From Shewanella putrefaciens (GTDB lineage: Bacteria > Pseudomonadota > Gammaproteobacteria > Enterobacterales > Shewanellaceae): a DNA stretch of 64,000 nucleotides. The stretch is from positions 3,038,001 to 3,102,000 of the forward strand of contig NZ_CP066370.1 in the NCBI RefSeq assembly GCF_016406325.1, read 5' to 3'. Of this stretch, positions 2,326-64,000 are shown piece by piece. A program made the position numbers and the translations under genes. Numbering within the stretch: position 1 is the stretch's first letter; the number at the start of each line of letters is the position of its first letter. The notes below the pieces were generated by a model, which ran no database searches, was not told where the DNA came from, and saw only the letters and a program-made list of their open reading frames with translations.

Positions 2326-3279
2326 TTAATATGCGTAACGCAGTTTTAACGCCTCAGGATGAGGATTCAAATACACTTGGTCTTCAATATAGGGGGTTGG
2401 AAACTCCCGCAGATAATGATTTATCAAGGTAATAGGCACCAATAATGGCAAGAGGCCTTGTCGATATTTCATAATCGCTTCAGATAGTTCTGTCTTTTGC
2501 TCTTTGCTCAAATGCTTTTTAAAATAACCTTGAATATGCTGTAACGTGCTGGTGTGATTCTTACGGGTCGCATTAATTTTAAGTGCCGTCATAAAGCCTT
2601 CAAAATAGCGAGTCGCACTGGTTTCAAGATCATCAATATTGGCAATAATAGGTCCTAGCTCGCGATACCATTTAGGGCTGTGGGCCATGAGCAGATATTT
2701 ATAACGGGAGTGAAACTTAACCAATTTATGCTTAGTTAATCCTTCGTGCTTCATTTGGTGCCAATCGTGATAGGCATAAACGCGGGTAAAAAAGTTTTCC
2801 CGTAATACCATATCGTGTAAGCGCCCCTCCTCCTCCACGGGTAGTAATGGATAACGCTCCATTAACTTGCGAGCAAACACACCGATACCCGATTTTGTGC
2901 CGTTATTCGTGCCTATTTTGTACTCAGTCACCCGTTCCATACCGCATGTAGGCGATTTAGCACAGAGCAAGTATCCCCCTAAAAAATCTAGCTCTTGTAC
3001 TTTGCTTTCACTGTAAGCATTCAGTCTGTCGGTGACATCTAAGCTACCATCGCCGCTTTGAACAAGTATGGTTTCACCATCACGCACTAAACGTATGCTT
3101 TTACGAGGTGCACCTAGACCAATCGCCATCTCAGGACAAATGGGAACATAATCAAAAAAATTTTTAATCTCTTGATTACAATAGGAAGAATTTTTGTGCC
3201 CCCCATCGAAGCGAACTTTTTCACCCAATAGACAAGCACTGATCCCAATCTGAATTCGCTGCGGGTTAAACTTATACAT
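2326..3279 (-). CDS. ybgA: DUF523-DUF1722 fusion protein (YbgA-like)
   Basis: A 317-residue cytoplasmic protein with an N-terminal DUF523 domain (about residues 9-155: GISACLLGEKVRFDGGHK, CPEMAIGLGAPR, AKSPTCGME) and a C-terminal DUF1722 domain (about 185-300: HSRYKYLLMAHSP, YFKKHLSKEQK). Conserved cysteines in DUF523 suggest a metal or cluster site, but no reaction is established. DUF1722 (YbgA) proteins are repeatedly found next to photolyases. Here it heads the operon with the MerR regulator and phrB, which suggests a role in light- or UV-related stress. The start has upstream purines (GGAG) and the promoter region holds paired TTGTACAA sites. Confidence 0.9.
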   Translation of the reverse strand: MYKFNPQRIQIGISACLLGEKVRFDGGHKNSSYCNQEIKNFFDYVPICPEMAIGLGAPRKSIRLVRDGETILVQSGDGSLDVTDRLNAYSESKVQELDFLGGYLLCAKSPTCGMERVTEYKIGTNNGTKSGIGVFARKLMERYPLLPVEEEGRLHDMVLRENFFTRVYAYHDWHQMKHEGLTKHKLVKFHSRYKYLLMAHSPKWYRELGPIIANIDDLETSATRYFEGFMTALKINATRKNHTSTLQHIQGYFKKHLSKEQKTELSEAIMKYRQGLLPLLVPITLINHYLREFPTPYIEDQVYLNPHPEALKLRYAY

Positions 3280-3350: not shown

Positions 3351-3462
3351 ATATTTATAAGTAACAGTGAAATTAACTAAACGATGATTTTGCGCATTTG
3401 GCCTCAATATTGCTTAAAAATAACCCGACATTTGACACAGCAATCAAAGGAGCCACACAAAA

Positions 3463-3966
3463 ATGATCGTTACTCACCCTAATACCTTCACAGCCGTTAC
3501 GCTCGCTCAGGTCAAGTCAAGCCAGAATCAGTTTGAAGATGCACTTGTATCGGCCACCACAGCTTCAGCAACGGTATTATCAACTCAAGATAAAGTGACC
3601 TTGTCCTCTACTGGGACCACTGCACAACCTGCTGATACTTATAGTCATTTAGCATCCAATGCTAAACAGAGTTATACAAGTAATGTGCAAAACATAGCGG
3701 GAACAAAAGAACCTGAAAAAGACACCAATCGTTTAGATGAAGCCATGCAAGCTATTCTAGATAGACGTACAGGTCTCGATAGGGAAAAACTGAAGAAAAT
3801 AGAAGAAGAAATGGAGAGAATTGCCGCTGACGAAAATCTATCAGAAGAAGAAAAATCTAAGCAAATAGAGCTACTTCAAGCCCAAAAAGTAGAACTCATT
3901 AAAGAATCAACGGAAAAAAATGAAGAGCGACAACGCAATAACCAAGCTGAAGTTCATTACAGTTGA
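3463..3966 (+). CDS. Hypothetical coiled-coil protein
   Basis: 167 residues, not recognised. There is no signal peptide or membrane segment. The first ~85 residues are Ser/Thr/Ala/Gln-rich and look disordered. Residues ~90-160 are strongly charged and predict a long coiled coil (DREKLKKIEEEMERIAADEN, EEEKSKQIELLQAQKVELIK). An AAGGAG site stands 10-11 bases before the ATG, so it is probably expressed. It diverges from the ybgA-merR-phrB operon and shares the upstream region containing the TTGTACAA repeats, so co-regulation is possible. The low-complexity N-terminus followed by a C-terminal helix recalls small proteins related to flagellar or anti-sigma function, but nothing decisive supports that. 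Confidence 0.7.
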   Translation: MIVTHPNTFTAVTLAQVKSSQNQFEDALVSATTASATVLSTQDKVTLSSTGTTAQPADTYSHLASNAKQSYTSNVQNIAGTKEPEKDTNRLDEAMQAILDRRTGLDREKLKKIEEEMERIAADENLSEEEKSKQIELLQAQKVELIKESTEKNEERQRNNQAEVHYS

Positions 3967-4074
3967 TACGCTAAATACTGAGGTTAGCAAATAAACCATT
4001 GCCCAACCCCAAGGCTATTGCGCTCACAAGTGAGTCCCTAAAGGCTTGTTTGGCATTGTTAATCCAATGGCGAC

Positions 4075-5316
4075 TCACCGAGAGGGCTTTTTACTGCCAA
4101 AGGCTCGTTTTTTGGCACGTTGTTTTTGTGCCGCTTTACCGTTACGCCTGGGTTCAGGTTCCATCTTATTAAAATCTGGCTCAAAACCGGGATACCATTG
4201 TTGCGGCAAGCGCTTATCAAGCACAACTTCGACTTCTTCTAGTAATAATGTATCTTCTTGGCTAAACAGCGTGATAGCAAGGCCTGCACTCCCCGCTCGC
4301 CCCGTACGGCCGATACGGTGAATATAGTCTTCAGCAATAAAGGGCAATTCAAAATTAATCACATATTTTAATTCAACAATATCTAGCCCACGGGCAGCAA
4401 CATCGGTGGCCACTAACACCTGAATATTACCCAGTTTAAATGCTTGTAATACTTTTTCCCGTGCGCCTTGGGACAAATCACCATGGAAGGCATGAGTGAC
4501 AATACTCAGTTTATTTAACTGCTGTACAAGTCTATCAACACCTTGCTTAGTACGACTAAAAATAAGCACTTGGTGCCAATGATTCGAACGAATCAAGTGA
4601 CTAACAAACTCAGTTTTACGATCGCTATCAATGGCATACACTCGTTGTTCAACCTGTGCTGCGGTCGTATTACGTTTAGTCACTTCGATTAATTTAGGCT
4701 CACGTAGTAAAGATTTACTCAACTCAAATATCGCATCATCTAAGGTGGCAGAAAAAAGTAGCGTTTGTCTGTCCTTAGGCACTTTTTTAAGCACTGCATT
4801 AATTTCATCCATAAACCCCATATCAAGCATACGGTCGGCTTCATCGAAAACTAATGTACTGAGTTGATTAAGGTTTAATACTCCTTGACGAAGATGATCG
4901 AGCAATCGCCCTGGGGTTGCAATTAGCACATCAATACCTGTTTTAAATACATCGACCTGCGCATCAATACTCACGCCGCCATAGGCTATACCTATACGAA
5001 TATCTGTATTTTTAGCATATTTAACAAAGCTTTGATGTACTTGTACCGCTAACTCACGTGTTGGTACTAACACTAATGCTTGTACGGTTTTTACCCTCTC
5101 AGCCTTCTGTTCTACATTTTTAGCCATAAGCAGATGCAAAATAGGGAGTGCAAATGCAGCCGTTTTACCCGTACCTGTCTGTGCGCCGGCCATCACATCT
5201 TGTTTGGCTAAAATGACTGGAATTGCTTCCGATTGAATGGGTGTGGGTAACGAGTAACCCAGTTCGGTTATGGTATTCACTAGAGTGGCATTTAAAGATA
5301 AGGAACTGAAAGACAT
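4075..5316 (-). CDS. rhlE: DEAD-box ATP-dependent RNA helicase, RhlE-like
   Basis: 413-residue RNA helicase for structured RNA, probably in ribosome assembly or mRNA turnover. Motifs occur in family order: Q motif (LPTPIQSEAIP), Walker A (AQTGTGKT), GG and TPGR, DEAD (VFDEADRMLDMGF), SAT (LLFSATL), then the RecA-2 domain with HAFHGDLSQGAREKVL, ATDVAARGLDI and HRIGRTGRAG. A short basic tail (RRNGKAAQKQRAKKRAFGSK) follows the core, as in RhlE-type enzymes that bind RNA nonspecifically. It is monocistronic between convergent and divergent neighbours. Several DEAD-box paralogues exist in such genomes, so the family call is surer than the gene symbol. Confidence 0.92.
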   Translation of the reverse strand: MSFSSLSLNATLVNTITELGYSLPTPIQSEAIPVILAKQDVMAGAQTGTGKTAAFALPILHLLMAKNVEQKAERVKTVQALVLVPTRELAVQVHQSFVKYAKNTDIRIGIAYGGVSIDAQVDVFKTGIDVLIATPGRLLDHLRQGVLNLNQLSTLVFDEADRMLDMGFMDEINAVLKKVPKDRQTLLFSATLDDAIFELSKSLLREPKLIEVTKRNTTAAQVEQRVYAIDSDRKTEFVSHLIRSNHWHQVLIFSRTKQGVDRLVQQLNKLSIVTHAFHGDLSQGAREKVLQAFKLGNIQVLVATDVAARGLDIVELKYVINFELPFIAEDYIHRIGRTGRAGSAGLAITLFSQEDTLLLEEVEVVLDKRLPQQWYPGFEPDFNKMEPEPRRNGKAAQKQRAKKRAFGSKKPSR

Positions 5317-5625
5317 TGGAAATCACCAAATAACATCATGGCATTAATGTTAGCAGATACGACATAGTCGCGCCTAGACGCAAAAGCAAAGCATTCCTCC
5401 AATGCAATCGACATTAACCACACGAGCAACTGTCATAGCCTCAATAATAGGTCACCACCGATGGAAGTAATGTATAAATAGGGTATCAAGATTGACTTCA
5501 CTGAGACGCGAATACCAGCGAGGCAGAAGCTACAACTTATTAATATTTTACAGAGTATTGATTGACAAAAATGCTATCTTATTGTCTACAATGGAAATAT
5601 TAAGGCTGAAACACCAAGGATATTT
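5317..5625. other. Intergenic region between rhlE and the Lon-like gene
   Basis: 309 bases between divergent genes. The only promoter-like element noticed is TTGACA at 5562-5567 with TACAAT at 5587-5592 (19-base spacer, so weak), pointing to the Lon-like gene. No RNA gene or repeat was seen. Confidence 0.4.
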
Positions 5626-8058
5626 ATGCCCACTGACCACTCATTTCAGATCAAGCCGAGCCAAGCAGCACCATTAACCAGTCAACAACTGTACCGTAAA
5701 TGTGATCTCAAAGAATTAAGCACCGACTGTCAATCAACCGCAGAACTGACACCACTGGATGATATTGTCGGCCAAGAACGCGCTCAACAAGCCGTTGAGT
5801 TCGCTATGGGAATAAAGGAAAAGGGCTACAATATCTACGCTATCGGTCAAAATGGCTTAGGTAAACGCACTATGATGCTACGTTACCTCAATCGACATGA
5901 GCCAAGTGAGCACAGCCTATACGATTGGTGCTATGTGGTAAATTTTGATGATACCCGCAGCCCTAAAGTGCTAAAACTCGCTGCAGGATCTGGGCTAGAG
6001 TTTAAAAAAGCCATCGAAAAATTGATGCTTAAGTTGGTCAAAGCGCTTCCTTTAGCCTTTGATAATGAAATGTATTATGCCCGTGCTGAAAAACTTAAAA
6101 GCCAACTGGCACAAAAGCAAGAAGCGGCGCTCACCGAATTAAGCGAAGAAGCCAAACAAAAGGGAATTAGCCTTAGCTTAACCTTACAGGGTGACTATCA
6201 AATGATCGCCCTAAACGGCGAAGAACCCCATGATGAACACTCCTTTACGGCATTAACTGAAACAGAACGCAATCAATTTGAAAGTAATATCAATGGACTC
6301 GAAGTCAAATTGCGCAACATCATCCGCCAAAATACTGAGTGGGAAGAAGAATTTAGTGACACTCAACAAGAACATGATGAACAAGTTGCAAAAGATGTAC
6401 TGATCCACTTTTTTAAACCCCTTAAGGATAAATATAAACATCAACCTGAAGTGCGTGCATTTTTAACCGGTATGCAGGCAGATATTTTAGATAACCTGGA
6501 TATCTTTTTAGAAGAAAGTGAAGAACAACTCGCCCTCGCCTATGCTTCACTCGAAAAGAAAATGCCACGTCGCTACCAAGTCAACGTACTGGTTTGCCAA
6601 GGCGCACAAAAATTTCCGATCGTGGTTGAAGAAAGCCCGAGTTATCACAGCTTATTTGGTTATGTCGAAAATGCGACCTTCAGGGGCACTGTATTTACCG
6701 ATTTTTCCCTCATCCGCTCAGGCAGTTTACATAAGGCCAATGGTGGCGTGCTATTGATGGACGCGGTAAAAGTATTAGAGCGTCCCTATGTCTGGGATGG
6801 TCTTAAACGCGCCCTACGTTCGCGTAAACTCGATTTAAGCTCATTAGAACGTGAAGTGTCGCTATCGGGTACAATATCGCTGGCACCTGAACCTATCCCC
6901 TTAGATGTCAAAATCATCCTATTTGGTGATCATGAAACCTACCAACTCTTACAACACTATGATCCAGATTTTAGTGAATTATTTAGAGTTACCGCTGATT
7001 TTGAAGATGTGATGGACAGAACCGATGCCTCTGAAGCCCATTATGCCCGCTTCATTTCCAGCATAGTCCACGATAACAATATGCTGCACTGTGATAGAAG
7101 CGCTATCGCACGGATCATCGAATACAGTTCCCGTGAAGCAGAAGATCAACAAAAACTCTCGTTGCATTCAGCGAACATTGCCAATCTGCTCCGTGAATCA
7201 AACTATTGTGCAAAATCGGCGGGTAGCAAGCAAATTAGTGCGCCTGATGTAGAGCAAGCACTTCGCAACCAAGAGCAGAGGGTTTCACGCCTACACGACA
7301 ACATAATGCAAAGCTTTATTAATGGTACAACATTAATTAACACCCAAGGTGACGTTATTGGTCAGATCAATGCCTTATCCGTTATTTCCACCTCTGACCA
7401 TCAATTTGGTATGCCTAATCGTATTACCGCGACAACGGCTTTTGGTAAAGGTGAAGTGTTAGACATTGAGCACAGAGTCAAACTGGGTGGGCGGATCCAT
7501 TCTAAGGGAGTGTTGATCTTAACCGCTTATTTAGCTTCGGTTTTAGGCAAGACGGCACAAATCCCCTTAACCACATACCTCACCTTTGAGCAATCCTATA
7601 GTGGCGTTGATGGGGACAGTGCCTCTATGGCCGAATGCTGCGCTATTATCTCTGCCATCAGTGAACTGCCTATCAGGCAAGATATTGCGATCACAGGTTC
7701 GATGAATCAATTTGGAGAAGCCCAACCCATTGGTGGTGTTAATGAGAAAATTGAAGGGTTTTTCGATGTCTGTAAAATAAAGGGCCGCTTATCGAGCCAA
7801 GGCGTGATTATTCCCGCATCAAATATTGCCAATCTTATGCTGCGTAAAGATATTGTCGATGCCGTTGAACAGGGTGAATTCCATATTTGGGCGATAACCC
7901 ATGTCACTCAAGCGATGGCACTGTTACTCGGCAAAAATGCAGGTAGCTTCTTGCAGCAAGAACCATCACCAAACCAAGAGCAATATTCACCTGAGAGCAT
8001 TTTTGGTATAGCACAACAAAAACTCACCACACTAAGAATGTTGAGTAAAGCCGATTAA
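5626..8058 (+). CDS. LonB-type ATP-dependent protease (AAA+ with S16 peptidase domain)
   Basis: 810-residue Lon-family protease without the LonA N-terminal substrate domain. An N-terminal AAA+ region contains a Walker A-like GQNGLGKRT (around residue 80), a long helical insertion (~120-290, including HDEQVAKDVLIHFF) and the GGVLLMDAVKVLERPYVW segment typical of this LonB/YcbZ group. The C-terminal S16 domain carries the catalytic Ser665 (GVDGDSASMAE) and Lys708 (GGVNEKIEGFF). The 43-residue spacing equals Ser679-Lys722 of E. coli Lon, so it should be an active peptidase. An AAGGA site lies seven bases before the ATG. No membrane segment is visible, so it is cytoplasmic. Substrates are unknown. 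Confidence 0.92.
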   Translation: MPTDHSFQIKPSQAAPLTSQQLYRKCDLKELSTDCQSTAELTPLDDIVGQERAQQAVEFAMGIKEKGYNIYAIGQNGLGKRTMMLRYLNRHEPSEHSLYDWCYVVNFDDTRSPKVLKLAAGSGLEFKKAIEKLMLKLVKALPLAFDNEMYYARAEKLKSQLAQKQEAALTELSEEAKQKGISLSLTLQGDYQMIALNGEEPHDEHSFTALTETERNQFESNINGLEVKLRNIIRQNTEWEEEFSDTQQEHDEQVAKDVLIHFFKPLKDKYKHQPEVRAFLTGMQADILDNLDIFLEESEEQLALAYASLEKKMPRRYQVNVLVCQGAQKFPIVVEESPSYHSLFGYVENATFRGTVFTDFSLIRSGSLHKANGGVLLMDAVKVLERPYVWDGLKRALRSRKLDLSSLEREVSLSGTISLAPEPIPLDVKIILFGDHETYQLLQHYDPDFSELFRVTADFEDVMDRTDASEAHYARFISSIVHDNNMLHCDRSAIARIIEYSSREAEDQQKLSLHSANIANLLRESNYCAKSAGSKQISAPDVEQALRNQEQRVSRLHDNIMQSFINGTTLINTQGDVIGQINALSVISTSDHQFGMPNRITATTAFGKGEVLDIEHRVKLGGRIHSKGVLILTAYLASVLGKTAQIPLTTYLTFEQSYSGVDGDSASMAECCAIISAISELPIRQDIAITGSMNQFGEAQPIGGVNEKIEGFFDVCKIKGRLSSQGVIIPASNIANLMLRKDIVDAVEQGEFHIWAITHVTQAMALLLGKNAGSFLQQEPSPNQEQYSPESIFGIAQQKLTTLRMLSKAD

Positions 8059-53922: not shown

Positions 53923-57109
<3,187 letters not shown>

Positions 57110-57177
57110 CTAGGACGGGGCAGTAGTATACCAAAGGCGGCGCGATTCGACAAACACCAATCGGGATAATTTGCCGT

Positions 57178-58104
57178 TTATCTCGTCTCCATCGCTTTTA
57201 CTTGGTCCCAATAGGCATCGAGCTCCATTAATGTATGCTCTTCCATGCTTTTACCGCTGTCACTGGCCAACTGTTCAACGCCGCGAAAACGGCGTTCAAA
57301 TTTAAGATTGGCTTGGCGCAACGCTTGTTCAGGATCGACCTTAAGATGTCGAGCTAAATTCACTACGGCAAACAGCAAATCGCCCATTTCGGACTGCACT
57401 TTAGCTTGGTCTTGCTCGTCTTGATTCACTTCATGCAAGACTTCATCGATTTCTTCATGGATTTTAGCGACCACGGGCTCAAGCTCGGCCCAATCAAACC
57501 CGACTCGCGCCACCCTTTGCTGAATTTTGATTGAACGTGACAGCGCGGGTTGTGAGCGAGGAATATTGTCTAGCGCTGAAACAATAATATCGGCTTGGGT
57601 TTCACCCGCCACTTGCTGTGCCTTTTGTTCACGTTCACTCGCCTTAATCGCCTCCCAATTGGCTTTCATCGCTTTGGCGCTATCGCCAATTTGTACATTT
57701 TGCTCACCAAACACATGGGGATGACGACGGGTTAACTTGTCGCTGATTTTCTCAATCACGCTCGAAAAATCAAATAACCCCTGCTCTTTGCCGAGCTGAC
57801 AATAGAATACGATTTGAAATAACAAATCCCCGAGTTCATCGGGTAACTCATCCCAGGCTAAACGTTCTATGGTATCGGCAACTTCATAGGCCTCCTCTAA
57901 GGTAAAAGGCACTATGGTTTGAAAGGTTTGCGCTTTATCCCAAGGGCAACCCGTGTGCGGATCACGCAGTTTTTCCATTATCTTAAGTAGCGGCTCTACA
58001 TCTGTTATAGACAGTTCCGTTGTAGATGGTTCCGTTGTAGAAGTTTCAGTCATAGAAGGTTCAGTAGTAGAAAATGAGGTTAATGGCGCCGTGTGGGAAG
58101 TCAT
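57178..58104 (-). CDS. mazG: Nucleoside triphosphate pyrophosphohydrolase with N-terminal repeat
   Basis: 308 residues from ATG 58104 (AAGGA nine bases upstream). MazG house-cleaning of (d)NTPs and (p)ppGpp control. Metal motif region CPWDKAQTFQTIVPFTLEEAYEVADTI (in pieces) and two EExxE-type repeats are visible (EIDEVLHEVNQDEQD, and the C-terminal DLLFAVVNLARHLKVDPEQAL). Relative to E. coli MazG (263), about 35 extra N-terminal residues consist of TTEPS-type five-residue repeats encoded by a 15-bp tandem repeat (57998-58072). The core is intact, so activity is expected. Confidence 0.95.
   Translation of the reverse strand: MTSHTAPLTSFSTTEPSMTETSTTEPSTTELSITDVEPLLKIMEKLRDPHTGCPWDKAQTFQTIVPFTLEEAYEVADTIERLAWDELPDELGDLLFQIVFYCQLGKEQGLFDFSSVIEKISDKLTRRHPHVFGEQNVQIGDSAKAMKANWEAIKASEREQKAQQVAGETQADIIVSALDNIPRSQPALSRSIKIQQRVARVGFDWAELEPVVAKIHEEIDEVLHEVNQDEQDQAKVQSEMGDLLFAVVNLARHLKVDPEQALRQANLKFERRFRGVEQLASDSGKSMEEHTLMELDAYWDQVKAMETR
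57998..58072 (-). repeat. Five-unit 15-bp tandem repeat inside mazG
   Basis: Five imperfect 15-bp units (75 bp in all), each containing a TAGA core. They encode STTEP, SMTET, STTEP, STTEL, SITDV-like peptides. The unit length is a multiple of three, so copy-number changes stay in frame. Confidence 0.85.
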
Positions 58105-58638
58105 GCAGATGTCCTTTAAAGATAAATACTGCAACGGGCGAATATTGAGAAAGAACAAAAAATACGCCTCAGCAGTGCTTATTAGCGAAAGGCTATAATA
58201 AAGCGATGATGATAAGCTAGGTAAAATAAAAGCGCTATTTTGATGCTGAGATCAGATTTTAGTGCCGTATTTCAACTAAGACTTATTTTAACGAAAGAGC
58301 GTTCGCTCCATTTCGTAATTCACTCATCTCGTGAGCAATAAATTGACAACCTTGTTACCCTGCAAATTCTCATCTATGTCCTGCATACAAGTATTTAGCG
58401 CAAGCCATCTTAAATGATAAGATACGCAGCAATACTTCAATGAAGCTAAAACTCACCGAGTGAAGACCTGACAATTTCGGCCAAACTATTACATGTGATG
58501 AATACACATGAGGAGCGCCGCGTGATGAATGCGGTTATTCGATCTATTTATTTGATTATACTAGGCGTTTCTCTATTCTATCGTCCTATATTAGGGCGTA
58601 CGCCTCTATAGATTTCAGCATTACTGGAGACAAAACTC
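58105..58638. other. Intergenic region between mazG and aguA with a small ORF
   Basis: 534 bases. Apart from a 28-codon ORF at 58525-58611, nothing else was recognised. A GC palindrome GGCGTACGCC lies inside the ORF at about 58595. Confidence 0.4.
58525..58611 (+). CDS. Possible small hydrophobic leader ORF before aguA
   Basis: 28 codons from ATG 58525 to TAG, preceded by GAGGAG nine bases upstream. The peptide starts MNAVIRSIYLIILGVSLFY and is hydrophobic. It overlaps by TGATG the stop of a five-codon ORF (ATG AGG AGC GCC GCG TGA). It ends 27 bases before the aguA ATG. It could be a leader peptide or a small membrane protein, or only chance; no family is recognised. Confidence 0.3.
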   Translation: MNAVIRSIYLIILGVSLFYRPILGRTPL

Positions 58639-59751
58639 ATGACAAACGTGAATGTGGATGTCACGCCGTTAACGACTAAGCCATCCCAAGATGGTTTTTA
58701 TATGCCCGCCGAATGGGCTGCGCAGCAAGCGGTGTGGATGATTTGGCCCTATCGTCCTGATAACTGGCGCGCAGCTGGTGCCTATGCTCAGGCGACCTTT
58801 GCCAAGGTGGCCGATGCCATTGGCGCGGCAACTCCAGTGTATATGGGTGTCCCTAAAGCCTTTTTAGCCGAAGCTAAAGCGGTAATGCCATCCCACGTCA
58901 CTTTGGTTGAAATGGACAGTAACGATTGCTGGGCTCGCGACACTGGGCCAACAGTAGTTGTAAATGCTCATGGCGAATGCCGCGGTGTTGACTGGGGTTT
59001 TAATGCTTGGGGCGGCCATAACGGTGGTTTGTACTTCCCATGGGATAAGGACGAGCAAGTCGCACAGCAAATGCTTGCGCAGCATGGTTTTGCCCGTTAC
59101 AGCGCGCCGCTGATCCTCGAAGGTGGCTCCATCCATGTCGATGGTGAAGGCACCTGTATGACGAGTGCCGAATGTTTGCTCAACGCCAACCGTAACCCTG
59201 AACTGACAAAAGAACAGATTGAAGACTTACTGCGTGACTATTTGAATGTTAAGCAGTTTATCTGGTTACAAGATGGCGTTTATATGGATGAGACCGATGG
59301 CCATATCGACAATATGTGCTGTTTTGCCCGCCCTGGTGAAGTCATTCTGCACTGGACCGATGATGAAACTGATCCACAATATCCACGTTCAAAAGCCGCG
59401 TTAGAGGTGTTGCAAAATACCGTGGATGCCAAAGGCCGTAAGTTAAAAATCCATCTGTTGCCACAACCGGGGCCGCTGTATTGCAGCGAAGAAGAATCAA
59501 AAGGTGTGACCGAAGGCACTGGCGTGCCACGCACGGCGGGTGAGCGTTTAGCAGGTTCTTATGTGAACTTTTTAATCACCAATAATCGCATCGTGTTCCC
59601 GCTGCTTGACCCTGCAACCGATGATATCGCCGCCCAAAAACTGCAGGAAATCTTCCCAGAGCATGAGATTGTGGGTGTGCCAGCCCGTGAGATTTTATTA
59701 GGTGGCGGCAATATCCATTGTATTACTCAGCAAATCCCTGCTGGAAAGTAA
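58639..59751 (+). CDS. aguA: Agmatine deiminase
   Basis: 370-residue guanidino-group hydrolase, converting agmatine to N-carbamoylputrescine and ammonia on the way to putrescine. Catalytic residues seen: ARDTGPT (Asp), [13 protein letters not shown] (His) and the nucleophilic Cys in [17 protein letters not shown] at the C-terminus. Length is standard. A good GGAG site is nine bases before ATG. It is followed at 59767 by an 18-codon remnant similar to the start of aguB and then by an amidase gene. Confidence 0.96.
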
Positions 59752-59766
59752 CCCAAGGAGAACAGC

Positions 59767-59823
59767 ATGACGATTAATGTCACTGTTATTGCACCACAAT
59801 TGGCTTTCTGCGGGAGGGCGTAA
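59767..59823 (+). pseudogene. aguB: Remnant of aguB (N-carbamoylputrescine amidase), N-terminus only
   Basis: An 18-codon ORF, MTINVTVIAPQLAFCGRA then stop, begins six bases after AAGGAG, 16 bases after the aguA stop. AguB proteins start like MTxNVTVAATQMA, so the first dozen codons correspond to a N-carbamoylputrescine amidase. The gene is cut off after this point and the ATG of the amidase follows two bases after the stop. It suggests a deletion that joined aguB's start to a different gene. Chance similarity of a short peptide is the alternative. Confidence 0.5.
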
Positions 59824-59824
59824 G

Positions 59825-61531
59825 ATGTTTGAAGTCACTGAAGTTTCTATTGCCGAGCTGCGTGCAGCGCTCGAATCTGGCCGCACCACCGCAGTTGAGT
59901 TGGTTAAGTCGTATCTCGCGCGGGTTGAGGCCTATGACGGCCCTGCGACAAAGACTAAGCTCAATGCGTTAGTGGTACATAATCCCGATGCGCTGAAAGA
60001 AGCCGAAGCCTCAGATGCGCGCCGCGCCCGTGGTGAAACCTTAAGCCCACTTGAGGGTATTCCGTATACCGCCAAGGATAGCTATTTGGTGAATGGGCTG
60101 ACGGCGGCGTCTGGCAGCCCAGCCTTTAAAGATTTAGTGGCCCAGTACGATGCCTTTGCCGTTGAGCGCCTACGCGCCGCGGGTGCCATTTGCTTAGGCA
60201 AAACCAATATACCCCCCATGGCCAATGGCGGTATGCAGCGTGGTCACTATGGCCGCGCTGAAAGCCCATACAATGCTGAGTATCTTACTGCACCATTCGC
60301 TTCGGGCTCTTCCAATGGAGCGGGCACAGGTACGGCGGCAAGTTACTCGGCTTTCGGTCTTGCAGAAGAAACGTGGTCAAGTGGCCGTGGCCCTGCGTCC
60401 AATAATGGTTTATGCGCCTATACGCCGTCTCGCGGCGTGATTTCCGTGCGTGGCAACTGGCCGTTAACCCCGACCATGGATGTTGTCGTGCCTTATACTC
60501 GCACAATGGCGGATATGCTCGAAGTGTTGGATGTGATTGTGGCCGATGACCCCATTACTCGTGGCGATCTCTGGCGTCTGCAACCTTGGGTCCAAATCCC
60601 TAAAGCCTCCACAATTCGCCCAGAATCTTATCTGGCGCTGGCGGCTAGCGCCGATACGCTCAAAGGTAAGCGTTTTGGGGTGCCGCGCATGTACATCAAT
60701 AAAGATGAATTGGCGGGTACCAGCGAAAATCCGGGTATTGGCGGCCCAACTGGTCAACGGATTCATACCCGCCAATCGGTTATCGATTTGTGGGAAGCGG
60801 CGCGTAGAGCCTTAGAAGCCGCTGGCGCCGAAGTGATTGAAGTCGATTTTCCGCTGGTTTCCAATTGTGAAGGTGACCGCCCGGGTGCGCCGACGGTGTT
60901 TAACCGCGGTATCGTTACGCCCCAATTCCTCCATGATGAATTATGGGAACTCTCAGGTTGGGCGTTCGATGAATTCCTGCGTGCTAACAATGACCCTAAA
61001 CTCAACAAGCTTGAAGATGTGGTTGGGCATTTGATATTCCCTCATGATCTTGGCACCTTGCCTAACCGTGAAGGAGACTTAGCGGCAGGCATGGAAGAGT
61101 ATGTCAACATGGCCAAGCGTGGCCTTAAATCCTTCGACCAGATCGACAGCATTCCCGATGGTCTGCGTGGCTTAGAGAAGACGCGTAAGCTGGATCTCGA
61201 AGACTGGATGGACGGGCTAAAGCTTGATGCCGTGCTGTTCCCAACCGTGGCCGATGTGGGCCCCGCCGATGCCCATGTGAATCCGGCTTCTGCCGATATC
61301 GCATGGAGTAACGGGGTTTGGGTAGCAAACGGAAACCTTGCGATTCGTCACTTAGGCGTACCAACTGTGACTGTACCTATGGGCGTGATGGCCGATATTG
61401 GTATGCCAGTTGGTTTGACCTTCGCAGGCCGCGCCTATGACGATAACAACCTGCTTAAATTTGCAGGTGCATTTGAGTCAACAGGTGACAGGCGCATGAT
61501 TCCGCCGCGCACACCAAAGCTTGGCCAATAA
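59825..61531 (+). CDS. Amidase-signature family hydrolase
   Basis: 568 residues from ATG 59825 (MFEVTEVSIAELRAALESGRT), with GGGAGG seven bases upstream; a longer reading from 59777 would cross the aguB remnant. The catalytic Lys is in GIPYTAKDSYLVNG; the Ser-rich loop is FASGSSNGAGTGTAAS, and the second Ser in ETWSSGRGPASNNGLCAYTPSRG. In most amidases this second motif reads TDTGGSIRxPA, so the oxyanion loop is altered. This subtype is more familiar from actinobacteria and fungi, suggesting transfer. The substrate is unknown; hydrolysis of N-carbamoylputrescine in place of AguB is possible but speculative. Confidence 0.85.
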   Translation: MFEVTEVSIAELRAALESGRTTAVELVKSYLARVEAYDGPATKTKLNALVVHNPDALKEAEASDARRARGETLSPLEGIPYTAKDSYLVNGLTAASGSPAFKDLVAQYDAFAVERLRAAGAICLGKTNIPPMANGGMQRGHYGRAESPYNAEYLTAPFASGSSNGAGTGTAASYSAFGLAEETWSSGRGPASNNGLCAYTPSRGVISVRGNWPLTPTMDVVVPYTRTMADMLEVLDVIVADDPITRGDLWRLQPWVQIPKASTIRPESYLALAASADTLKGKRFGVPRMYINKDELAGTSENPGIGGPTGQRIHTRQSVIDLWEAARRALEAAGAEVIEVDFPLVSNCEGDRPGAPTVFNRGIVTPQFLHDELWELSGWAFDEFLRANNDPKLNKLEDVVGHLIFPHDLGTLPNREGDLAAGMEEYVNMAKRGLKSFDQIDSIPDGLRGLEKTRKLDLEDWMDGLKLDAVLFPTVADVGPADAHVNPASADIAWSNGVWVANGNLAIRHLGVPTVTVPMGVMADIGMPVGLTFAGRAYDDNNLLKFAGAFESTGDRRMIPPRTPKLGQ

Positions 61532-61582
61532 GCGCTAAGACAATGCATAAGCCCAAGCACTAAATGTATGAGCTTAAAAATG

Positions 61583-61622
61583 AAAACGGGATTTGCACCA
61601 GAATGCCAATCCCGTTTTTTTA
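61583..61622. terminator. Terminator between amidase and mesD
   Basis: Stem AAAACGGGATT / AATCCCGTTTT with a 14-base loop and a T7 tail. It is bidirectional by flanking sequence and separates convergent operons. Confidence 0.8.
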
Positions 61623-61711
61623 ATACCGACGTCAATACCTTTTCAACAAAGCTAGACTCATGCTGCTATAAAACATGCTGCTGTAAAACAGACAGCAACA
61701 CTTAACGCGTC

Positions 61712-62776
61712 TTATCTTAATGCCAAGAGTTCTTTTCTGACGATCTCTGCGCCTGCACTTAAGGCATTGAGTTTACCTCTTGCGACTTGATGCGATAAGG
61801 GCGTCATGCCGCAGTTGGTGCAAGGATAGAGCTTGTCGGCATCGACAAATTTAAGGGCTTTTCGTAGGGTGTCAGCCACTTCCTCAGCGGTTTCAATGGT
61901 GTCGGTGGCAACATCAATCGCACCGACCATGACTTTTTTACCGCGAATGAGTTCAAGTAGTTCCATTGGCACATGGGAGTTGTGACATTCTAGCGAGATA
62001 ATATCGATATTAGACTTTTGCAGTTTAGGAAACGCTTCTTCATATTGGCGCCACTCTGAGCCCAAGGTTTTTTTCCACTCTGTATTGGCTTTGATGCCGT
62101 AACCATAACAAATATGCACCGCCGTTTCGCATTTAAGCCCTTCAATGGCTCTTTCTAAACACGCAATACCCCAATCGTTTACCTCATCAAAAAACACATT
62201 AAAGGCAGGCTCATCAAATTGGATAATATCAACACCCGCCGCTTCTAATTCTTTGGCTTCCTCATTAAGAATTTTGGCAAATTCCCACGCGAGCTTTTCG
62301 CGACTTTTATAATGGTCATCATAAAGCGTATCTATCATGGTCATAGGGCCAGGCAGCGCCCATTTAATCCGTTGCGTGGTTTGCTTGCGTAAAAATTTGG
62401 CATCCTCAACAAACACCGACTTTTGGCGGCTCACTGGGCCGACAACCGTGGGCACGCTCGCATCATAGCGATCACGAATTTTAACGATTTTACGTTTTGA
62501 AAAATCAACGCCGTTGAGGTGTTCAATAAAGGTAGTGACAAAATGCTGCCGCGTTTGCTCACCATCACTGACAATATCAATCCCTGCTAGCTGTTGATCC
62601 TGTAATGACAAACGCAGTGCATCGTGTTTACCGGTAATTAATTCCTCTCCTTGCAATTTCCATGGAGACCAAAGTGTTTCAGGCTCTGCAAGCCATAAAG
62701 GTTTAGGCAAACTGCCCGCAGTTGAAGTCGGTAACAGTGTCTGGTTAAGCGATGTTTTATTAAGTCGTGTTGTCAT
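61712..62776 (-). CDS. mesD: Core methionine synthase, MesD-like
   Basis: 354-residue protein corresponding to the catalytic half of MetE alone (E. coli MetE 753), without the N-terminal domain. The zinc ligands of the MetE site are present: His221 and Cys223 (VHICYGYG), Glu263 (SLECHNSH) and Cys322 (PCTNCGMTPL). The TIM-barrel also shows DIIQFDEPAFNVFFDE. Folate-independent core-MetE families (MesA-D) were described recently, and MesD is defined by its partner MesX (DUF1852), which is the next gene upstream here. The methyl donor is not known. It is the distal gene of a minus-strand operon with mesX, 55 bases apart. Confidence 0.9.
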   Translation of the reverse strand: MTTRLNKTSLNQTLLPTSTAGSLPKPLWLAEPETLWSPWKLQGEELITGKHDALRLSLQDQQLAGIDIVSDGEQTRQHFVTTFIEHLNGVDFSKRKIVKIRDRYDASVPTVVGPVSRQKSVFVEDAKFLRKQTTQRIKWALPGPMTMIDTLYDDHYKSREKLAWEFAKILNEEAKELEAAGVDIIQFDEPAFNVFFDEVNDWGIACLERAIEGLKCETAVHICYGYGIKANTEWKKTLGSEWRQYEEAFPKLQKSNIDIISLECHNSHVPMELLELIRGKKVMVGAIDVATDTIETAEEVADTLRKALKFVDADKLYPCTNCGMTPLSHQVARGKLNALSAGAEIVRKELLALR

Positions 62777-62831
62777 AATAATGATGCCGTATTGGATTAA
62801 TTAATGAGCGTGACAATTAGGCGCAGAGCGA

Positions 62832-63806
62832 CTAAAGATAATTAGCAGACCATTGTTCAAAAAACGTTTGATAGGGTTTGATAAAGTGCTCCGCTGCAAA
62901 TTTGCCTTGCTCATTCGCCAATTGGCTACGTTCTGCTCGGTCATAAACAATTTGAGTCAGTGAATGATCCAAGTTTTTCAAATTAGGTTGATAGCATTTC
63001 CCTGCAACGGCATTGGCGTTATAAATCTCTGGCCGATAGATTTTTTGAAAGGTGCCCATAGTGCTGATGGTGCTTATCAACTCAAGATGGGTGTAATCAT
63101 TCAGTAAATCACCAAAGAAATAAAAAGCTAAAGGCGCCACACTATTTGGCGGCATAAAATAGCGCACCTGTAAGCCCATTTTTTTGAAATATTGCTCAGT
63201 TAAAGACGACTCATTTGGCTGATATTCAACCCCTAATACTGGATGCTGATTCTCAATTCTATGGTAGGTTTTATTATCCGACACACTGAGGCAGATAACC
63301 GGTGGCTTATTAAAATTCTGTTTGTAAGCATCAGAATTAACAAAAGACTGAAATAGCTTGCCATGTAGTCCACCAAAATCATCTGGAATACTAAATTTGG
63401 CTTGGCCCTTATTATGTTCTGCCAGTAATACGCTAAAGTCATAATCGCGTACGTAAGATGAAAAATTATTACCTACAATGCCTTCAATACGTTTATTGGT
63501 TTTATGATCAACAATATTGGTTTTCAATACTTCAATCGATGGGAAGGTTTGACCACTGCCGTCAATATCCAAATTAACGGAGATAATTTCAAGTTCGACA
63601 GAATAACGATCGCCTTTAGGGTTATCCCAATGCGCTAAGGCATTAAAACTATTATCAATCATCTTTAACGCGTTGCGTAAGTTCGCTTGGCGATGACTGC
63701 CTCTGGCCAAATTAGCAAAGTTGGTCGTGATACGCGTCTTGTCTGAGGGATGATAATTTTCATCAAGACAAATGCTGTTAATCGTAAATGTAAAATGCTT
63801 ATTCAT
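62832..63806 (-). CDS. mesX: MesX (DUF1852), partner of MesD
   Basis: 324 residues from ATG 63806 (MNKHFTFTINSICLDENY); an in-frame ATG at 63824 is possible. DUF1852 family. Readable family parts include KTRITTNFANLARGSHRQANLRNALKMIDNSFN (in pieces), RYSVELEIISVNLDIDGSGQTFP, and the C-terminal GKCYQPNLKNLDHSLTQIVYDR. No signal peptide or membrane segment. MesX is required with MesD for methionine synthesis in Acinetobacter baylyi, and the process there needs oxygen. It is directly upstream of mesD, consistent with an operon. Confidence 0.88.
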   Translation of the reverse strand: MNKHFTFTINSICLDENYHPSDKTRITTNFANLARGSHRQANLRNALKMIDNSFNALAHWDNPKGDRYSVELEIISVNLDIDGSGQTFPSIEVLKTNIVDHKTNKRIEGIVGNNFSSYVRDYDFSVLLAEHNKGQAKFSIPDDFGGLHGKLFQSFVNSDAYKQNFNKPPVICLSVSDNKTYHRIENQHPVLGVEYQPNESSLTEQYFKKMGLQVRYFMPPNSVAPLAFYFFGDLLNDYTHLELISTISTMGTFQKIYRPEIYNANAVAGKCYQPNLKNLDHSLTQIVYDRAERSQLANEQGKFAAEHFIKPYQTFFEQWSANYL

Positions 63807-63955
63807 AGTGTTCCAGTATCCCATTGTCTGATTTCAAACCTGAGTTTATGCCCTGCGCTTCTAGCTTCTCGACCCGACTCTGATAGACATTATTCGTGTT
63901 CTGTCTGAGGTTCTATTTAACTTAAGTGCCGATGACTTAAGTCCTGATGGCTCAG

Positions 63956-64000
63956 CTAGTGTGCAACTTCAAGCTTGTCTAATATTTCGCTTGGAGTCAT
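63956..64000 (-). CDS. C-terminal tail of a gene cut by the window edge
   Basis: On the minus strand a frame reads MTPSEILDKLEVAH then TAG at 63956, open to the edge. If a real gene, it ends 150 bases upstream of mesX and would be the operon's first gene. Only 14 codons are visible, so identity is open. Confidence 0.25.
   Translation of the reverse strand: MTPSEILDKLEVAH

Follow-up and report, generated by a model that had tools for sequence, protein, structure and literature searches.

The closest described relatives of the locus treated here are the MesD-MesX pairs reported by Price et al. (2021; PMC7857596), which include ACIAD3523/ACIAD3524 of Acinetobacter baylyi, a pair from Sphingomonas koreensis and a Shewanella MesD of solved structure (3RPD, from Shewanella sp. 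W3-18-1, containing zinc and selenomethionine). Together, MesD and MesX rescued metE and metF mutants of Escherichia coli with air and not without it, and neither gene was sufficient alone (PMC7857596). The pair is among the few routes to methionine that dispense with both folate and vitamin B12. In the same paper an oxygenase or oxidase role was predicted for MesX, whose Pfam family (PF08908, formerly DUF1852) is likewise labelled “putative oxygenase”, while the source of the methyl group was left open; no later published answer on the methyl donor emerged from our searches. Besides that paper, in which the function of MesX is treated, the genes are mentioned in two others: vitamin B12 represses the DUF1852 gene in Acinetobacter baumannii (PMC12892962), and MesD homologues appear to let two isolates from roots escape nitrous oxide poisoning of MetH (PMC13059711). 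Finally, Leyn et al. (2014; PMC4239095) listed “PF08908-metE2” among the well-conserved predicted targets of the regulator MetR. Here we describe such a gene pair in a stretch of 64,000 nucleotides of Shewanella putrefaciens (assembly GCF_016406325.1, contig NZ_CP066370.1, bases 3038001-3102000 of a genome that forms one contig of 4386330 bases; hereafter, the window). Judging from its sequence and from its characterized relatives, from which the function is taken, this locus is very probably the mesX-mesD operon of Shewanella, in both the identity and the role of the pair.

The assignment of the second gene to the MesD family is supported by curated hidden Markov model (HMM) cut-offs, by identity to 3RPD and by the gene pairing. 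The predicted protein scored 704.9 bits against the NCBIfam model NF006589, “methionine synthase” (cut-off 392, E=1.5e-212), and fell below the cut-off of each of nine other NCBIfam methionine synthase models, MetE included (TIGR01371, 103.7 vs 929.95 bits; NF003556, 110.8 vs 541). A previous reading, made from the sequence only, had described it as the catalytic half of MetE without the N-terminal folate-binding half, and this description holds: in a protein of 354 residues, PF01717 covers residues 15-339 (124.8 bits), and PF08267 reaches 19.9 bits, which is under its cut-off of 27 and located inside the part covered by PF01717. The closest solved structure is 3RPD, to which MesD could be aligned over 354 of 354 residues (791 bits, approximately 98% identity); a count by eye gave six differences in the alignment as printed. 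The substrate residues Ser22, Glu73 and Asp188 (3RPD numbering) and Tyr226, located in a MesD-specific insertion (PMC7857596), are all in place, as are the four zinc ligands that the sequence-only reading had named (His221, Cys223, Glu263 and Cys322). These positions were followed in an alignment of 119 sequences, consisting of the window's MesD and 118 MesD-like open reading frames (ORFs) from fetched loci, to which the C-terminal half of MetE of the same genome was added; a few places, including that of the window itself, are represented twice. The zinc ligands, Glu73, Asp188 and Tyr226 were kept in 119 of the 119 sequences and Ser22 in 118, with one gap. MetE of the same genome has identical zinc and substrate residues and is without Tyr226, at the position of the insertion. 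A second clade of MesD, 54-56% identical to that of the window, is likewise paired with MesX (loci L021/L048, L039 and L045).

The protein encoded by the preceding gene matched PF08908.16 (“MesX, putative oxygenase”) over profile positions 1-323 of 323 with 603.7 bits (cut-off 25, E=8.7e-182). Both PF08908 (DUF1852), against which a check had been proposed, and the methionine synthase model NF006589 are matched far above cut-off, and the E values (8.7e-182 and 1.5e-212, respectively) exclude chance matches; together with the ORF positions, the PF08908 match confirms that a DUF1852 gene precedes mesD. This MesX is 73% identical to the A. baylyi MesX record P0324, its nearest named records are those of Shewanella, and its predicted structure model is confident.

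The pairing of MesX with MesD, which had been put forward as the sign of the MesD family, was followed in 123 mesX loci, of which 30 came from a phylum draw, 13 were taken by place and 80 were named; the named loci represent the best 80 among 592 confirmed matches, mostly from gammaproteobacteria close to Shewanella. Four places occur twice among the 123, and some genomes may be included both under a name and without one. In 120 of these loci mesD adjoins mesX in the same orientation, as it does in the window; this number includes L039, in which one FMN (flavin mononucleotide) reductase gene lies in between. The three exceptions (L095, L096 and L107) all belong to Pseudoalteromonas luteoviolacea, and a MesX free of MesD was considered and rejected for them, as all three genomes hold a MesD elsewhere that is 78-79% identical to the window's. 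Within the genus the two genes go together as well: in a sample of 97 Shewanella genomes, MesX was found in 34 and MesD (E <= 1e-100) in 34, these being the same 34 genomes when the lists were compared by eye, and 63 had neither gene. In the wider phylum draw, 44 of 398 genomes contained MesX, and none of 14 control genomes did.

Some loci of this collection show peculiarities of their own. In Bowmanella yangjiangensis (L059, from 6857-7393 on) the mesD beside an intact mesX is split into two fragments that lie in different frames, possibly by a sequencing error. In L039 the FMN reductase gene (PF03358) is found between mesX and a divergent mesD (3366-6066), and the flanks (1-894 and 6903-7501) hold ORFs in opposite orientation that share their first 60 residues and are transposase-like by look only, as if the cassette were mobile. 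One further genome (G082) carries, at C1:2175963-2176446, pieces of a second mesX copy, one of them with an internal stop, in addition to a full-length copy at 2600368.

The coordinates of the window's own locus are collected in Table 1; both ORFs were found where the sequence-only reading had placed them. For mesX, a first ATG at 63824 would give 330 residues and an inner ATG at 63806 gives 324. The latter, which is also the start chosen previously, matches the length of most relatives among those listed (324-325 residues). For the gap between the genes no terminator-like or promoter-like site was reported on the minus strand, and for this reason mesX and mesD probably form one transcription unit. 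The hairpin that follows mesD is a weak candidate, as 3 terminator-like sites were seen in the scanned 3 kb against 2.5 expected by chance. Beyond it, two plus-strand ORFs (window 58639-61531), agmatine deiminase-like and amidase-like by look only, converge on mesD.

Table 1. Features of the mesX-mesD locus. Positions are those of the window; L037 is a 13-kb stretch around the end of the window (60999 is added to an L037 position to obtain that in the window).
Feature	Position	Strand	Basis
mesD, predicted folate-independent core methionine synthase	61712..62776 (stop codon included)	minus	ORF, 354 residues; NF006589; 3RPD match; residues
mesX (PF08908, formerly DUF1852), putative oxygenase/oxidase partner of MesD	62832..63806	minus	ORF, 324 residues; PF08908.16
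Gap between mesX and mesD, 55 base pairs (bp)	62777..62831	minus	
Terminator-like hairpin directly 3' of mesD	61675..61701 (L037 676-702)	minus	weak

Since MetE (a frame of 795 residues), MetH and MetF are also encoded in the same genome, MesXD is a third, accessory methionine synthase there. The pair is then dispensable in principle, and it might be a non-functional remnant beside a working MetE and MetH, a reading to which the broken mesD of Bowmanella and the 3 of 34 MesD matches in the genus flagged with one internal stop (G462, G465 and G467) lend some colour. In the window, however, both frames are intact and of full length, all functional residues are kept and the identity to relatives is high, which renders decay of this pair hardly credible. 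As a working operon it would provide an aerobic reserve route, independent of B12 and folate, beside MetE, MetH and MetF.

Control of mesX-mesD by MetR, as predicted by Leyn et al. (2014), is supported by the sequences upstream of mesX. For Shewanella oneidensis a MetR consensus TGAG-N5-TTCA has been derived from gel-shift data (PMC13393422), in a paper that does not mention mesD, mesX or DUF1852. One exact box of this type is present in the 13 kb of L037, at 3053-3065, which is 52-64 bp past the window's end and approximately 245 bp upstream of mesX. Among the relatives, an exact MetR-type box was found in 94 of 118 stretches of up to 400 bp upstream of mesX (31 with the palindromic type and 66 with that of S. 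oneidensis, some carrying both); 100 first-order resamplings gave 4.0 on average and 9 at most. The stretches are those of the 123 loci less four duplicates and less L126, where upstream DNA is missing. The palindrome with one mismatch allowed was found in 107 of 123 loci against a shuffle mean of 27. The loci are related, so that these counts are not independent, but 94 observed against about 4 expected argues that the box is not there by chance across the relatives. Two observations count against this regulatory reading. On its own the box of L037 proves nothing, given that 0.41 exact sites are expected per 13 kb by chance and at least one was obtained in 65 of 200 shuffles (a looser scan of the same 13 kb for the palindrome, allowing one mismatch, returned 5 sites vs 8.6 expected), and the exact box is missing in 24 of the 118 upstream stretches. 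With the regulation as proposed, MetR would switch the operon on as homocysteine accumulates. LysR proteins are encoded beside mesXD in L059 and L039, and their best match is the MetR model, below its cut-off (201 and 228 vs 382 bits).

A cobalamin riboswitch lies directly upstream of mesX in L038 (2731-2929, plus strand) and L040 (4409-4600, minus strand), 2 of the 14 loci in that scan, both of which are without an exact MetR-type box. When all 24 box-less loci had been scanned, the riboswitch was absent from the other 22 (L039, L046, L049 and 19 more), and it was therefore rejected as a general substitute for the MetR box; none was detected at gathering score in window positions 57000-64000 or in L037. 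In L117 a match to the TwoAYGGAY RNA (5414-5559, minus strand; 49.7 bits, gathering score 43) was seen upstream of mesX, on the strand opposite to it.

As regards the mechanism, MesD would bind homocysteine on the zinc held by His221, Cys223, Glu263 and Cys322, and would receive a methyl group that comes neither from 5-methyl-tetrahydrofolate nor from B12. MesX may make or hand over this group in an O2-dependent step, the need for MesX and for O2 having been shown genetically for relatives. Two families of neighbouring genes bear on how this might be achieved. The first are the flavin reductases (FMN_red or Flavin_Reduct), which BLAST searches with three queries placed beside mesXD in at least 8 of the 123 loci. 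The figure is a lower bound, given the three queries, the 1.5-kb flanks of 30 loci and the truncated flanks of 8 among the 80 named ones, and it falls short of what Price et al. (PMC7857596), who wrote “often”, would lead one to expect. Four belong to PF03358 (assigned by Pfam in L024 and L039 and by similarity in L027 and L028), of which the L024 protein passes the cut-off of the MsuE model (248.6 vs 212.5 bits), and four to PF01613 (L046, L122, L123 and L047), with the L047 protein closest to RutF and HpaC and below both cut-offs.

The second family are TauE/SafE-type anion exporters (PF01925), which, when the ORFs around 92 loci were clustered, outnumbered every neighbour family other than mesX and mesD themselves (44 loci, followed by LysR with 12). 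By BLAST, a TauE-type gene was found beside mesXD in 51 of the 123 loci, and these genes fall into three clades that share approximately 32-40% identity with one another and 68-99% within each (L068, a frame fragment, was left out of the clade lists). Clade 1 is divergent from mesX at a distance of 240-740 bp in 39 loci (35 named ones, within L053-L125, and L008, L019, L020 and L026), and in 34 of the 35 named loci the shared intergenic region contains a MetR-type box when one mismatch is allowed. Clade 2 follows mesD in 10 loci (L007, L018, L057, L061, L081, L085, L087, L093, L104 and L112), and clade 3 follows mesD and a flavin reductase in 2 loci (L047 and L123), where the order on one strand is mesX, mesD, flavin reductase and exporter. 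Altogether 44 of the 80 named loci (35 + 8 + 1) have such a gene, a count that is inflated by the relatedness of the loci, where chance would place a PF01925 gene in 1 to 2 of 80 stretches of 13 kb; this expectation is based on ten genomes, eight with an exporter locus and two without (L101 and L111), each of which gave 4-11 PF01925 matches in 4.3-6.4 Mb (approximately 1.4 per Mb). Because the three clades occupy different positions, a functional link between exporter and mesXD can be argued. TauE does not appear in the main texts of PMC7857596 or PMC4239095; Table S2 of Leyn et al. could still list it.

The linkage to flavin reductases and exporters suggests that MesX may work with reduced flavin and O2 and leave an anion that is exported. 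MesX would then most likely use reduced flavin supplied by a separate FMN reductase, a step read from the neighbourhoods in some relatives. In its most explicit form, which is possible and put forward tentatively, MesX would be the half of a new two-component system that uses reduced FMN (FMNH2) and O2: an MsuE- or RutF/HpaC-like reductase would feed MesX, a common metabolite would be split, its methyl group would pass to MesD and the rest would leave as an anion (sulfite, sulfonate or a small carboxylate) via the MetR-controlled TauE/SafE-type exporter, the fold of MesX being new or very distantly GNAT-like. Several observations weigh against such a scheme. At the window's own locus, no flavin reductase and no TauE-type gene was found beside the pair, either among the surrounding ORFs or by BLAST of L037 with the genes of relatives. 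The same genome holds six TauE-type genes over the cut-off, none near mesX, the nearest being 46% identical to the clade upstream of mesX elsewhere. Being seen in 8 and 51 of the 123 loci, respectively, reductase and exporter are no fixed part of the system. Moreover, comparison of the predicted MesX fold gave no lead to a known oxygenase and was undecided either way.

This last result would also suit a MesX that acts as a chaperone, an activator or a loader of zinc or homocysteine, with MesD alone taking the methyl group from a cell metabolite and with an indirect need for O2 (through respiration, quinone or H2O2); Price et al. (PMC7857596) allow in principle for an effect through the electron transport chain. 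Such a role, which competes with the mechanism proposed for MesX and not with the identity of the pair, appears unlikely, as the extreme conservation of MesX (89 invariant columns across 112 sequences, the lowest being 59% identical to the first sequence) suits an enzyme and the flavin reductases beside mesXD point to redox chemistry. It is decidedly improbable that MesX is a distant GNAT-like protein which binds a thioester of the coenzyme A or pantetheine type (e.g., acetyl-CoA) and uses O2 to free its methyl group. Returning to a MesX that uses reduced flavin and O2, the linkage with exporters and flavin reductases offers a new lead of moderate strength on the methyl donor, in relatives only, and the three exporter clades and some FMN reductases provide a handle on the exported anion and on the dependence on a flavin reductase.

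The sequence-only reading had concluded that the window holds a partly understood route of methyl transfer. Of this, the family, the pairing, the zinc site and the lost folate half stand, and the methyl donor is open in print, but the route itself is already known, as the relatives of Price et al. (2021), the MetR prediction of Leyn et al. (2014) and the near-identical 3RPD have all been published; the system is a known one, and its MesD is a near-copy of the crystallised Shewanella protein. Compared with the PF08908-metE2 targets of Leyn et al., the locus has the same gene pair and a MetR-type box upstream of mesX, whereas its box lies past the window's end and matches the S. oneidensis variant of the consensus instead of a perfect palindrome. 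With MetE, MesD shares the catalytic half and the zinc- and substrate-binding residues; it differs in having no N-terminal half, in scoring far under the MetE model cut-offs and in carrying, as compared with MetE of the same genome, an 18-residue insertion between zinc ligands two and three. From the pairs of Price et al. the locus differs in that no flavin reductase stands beside it and its host also has MetE and MetH; it has in common with them the two families, encoded by adjoining genes, and the residues for zinc and substrate, among them the MesD-specific Tyr226.
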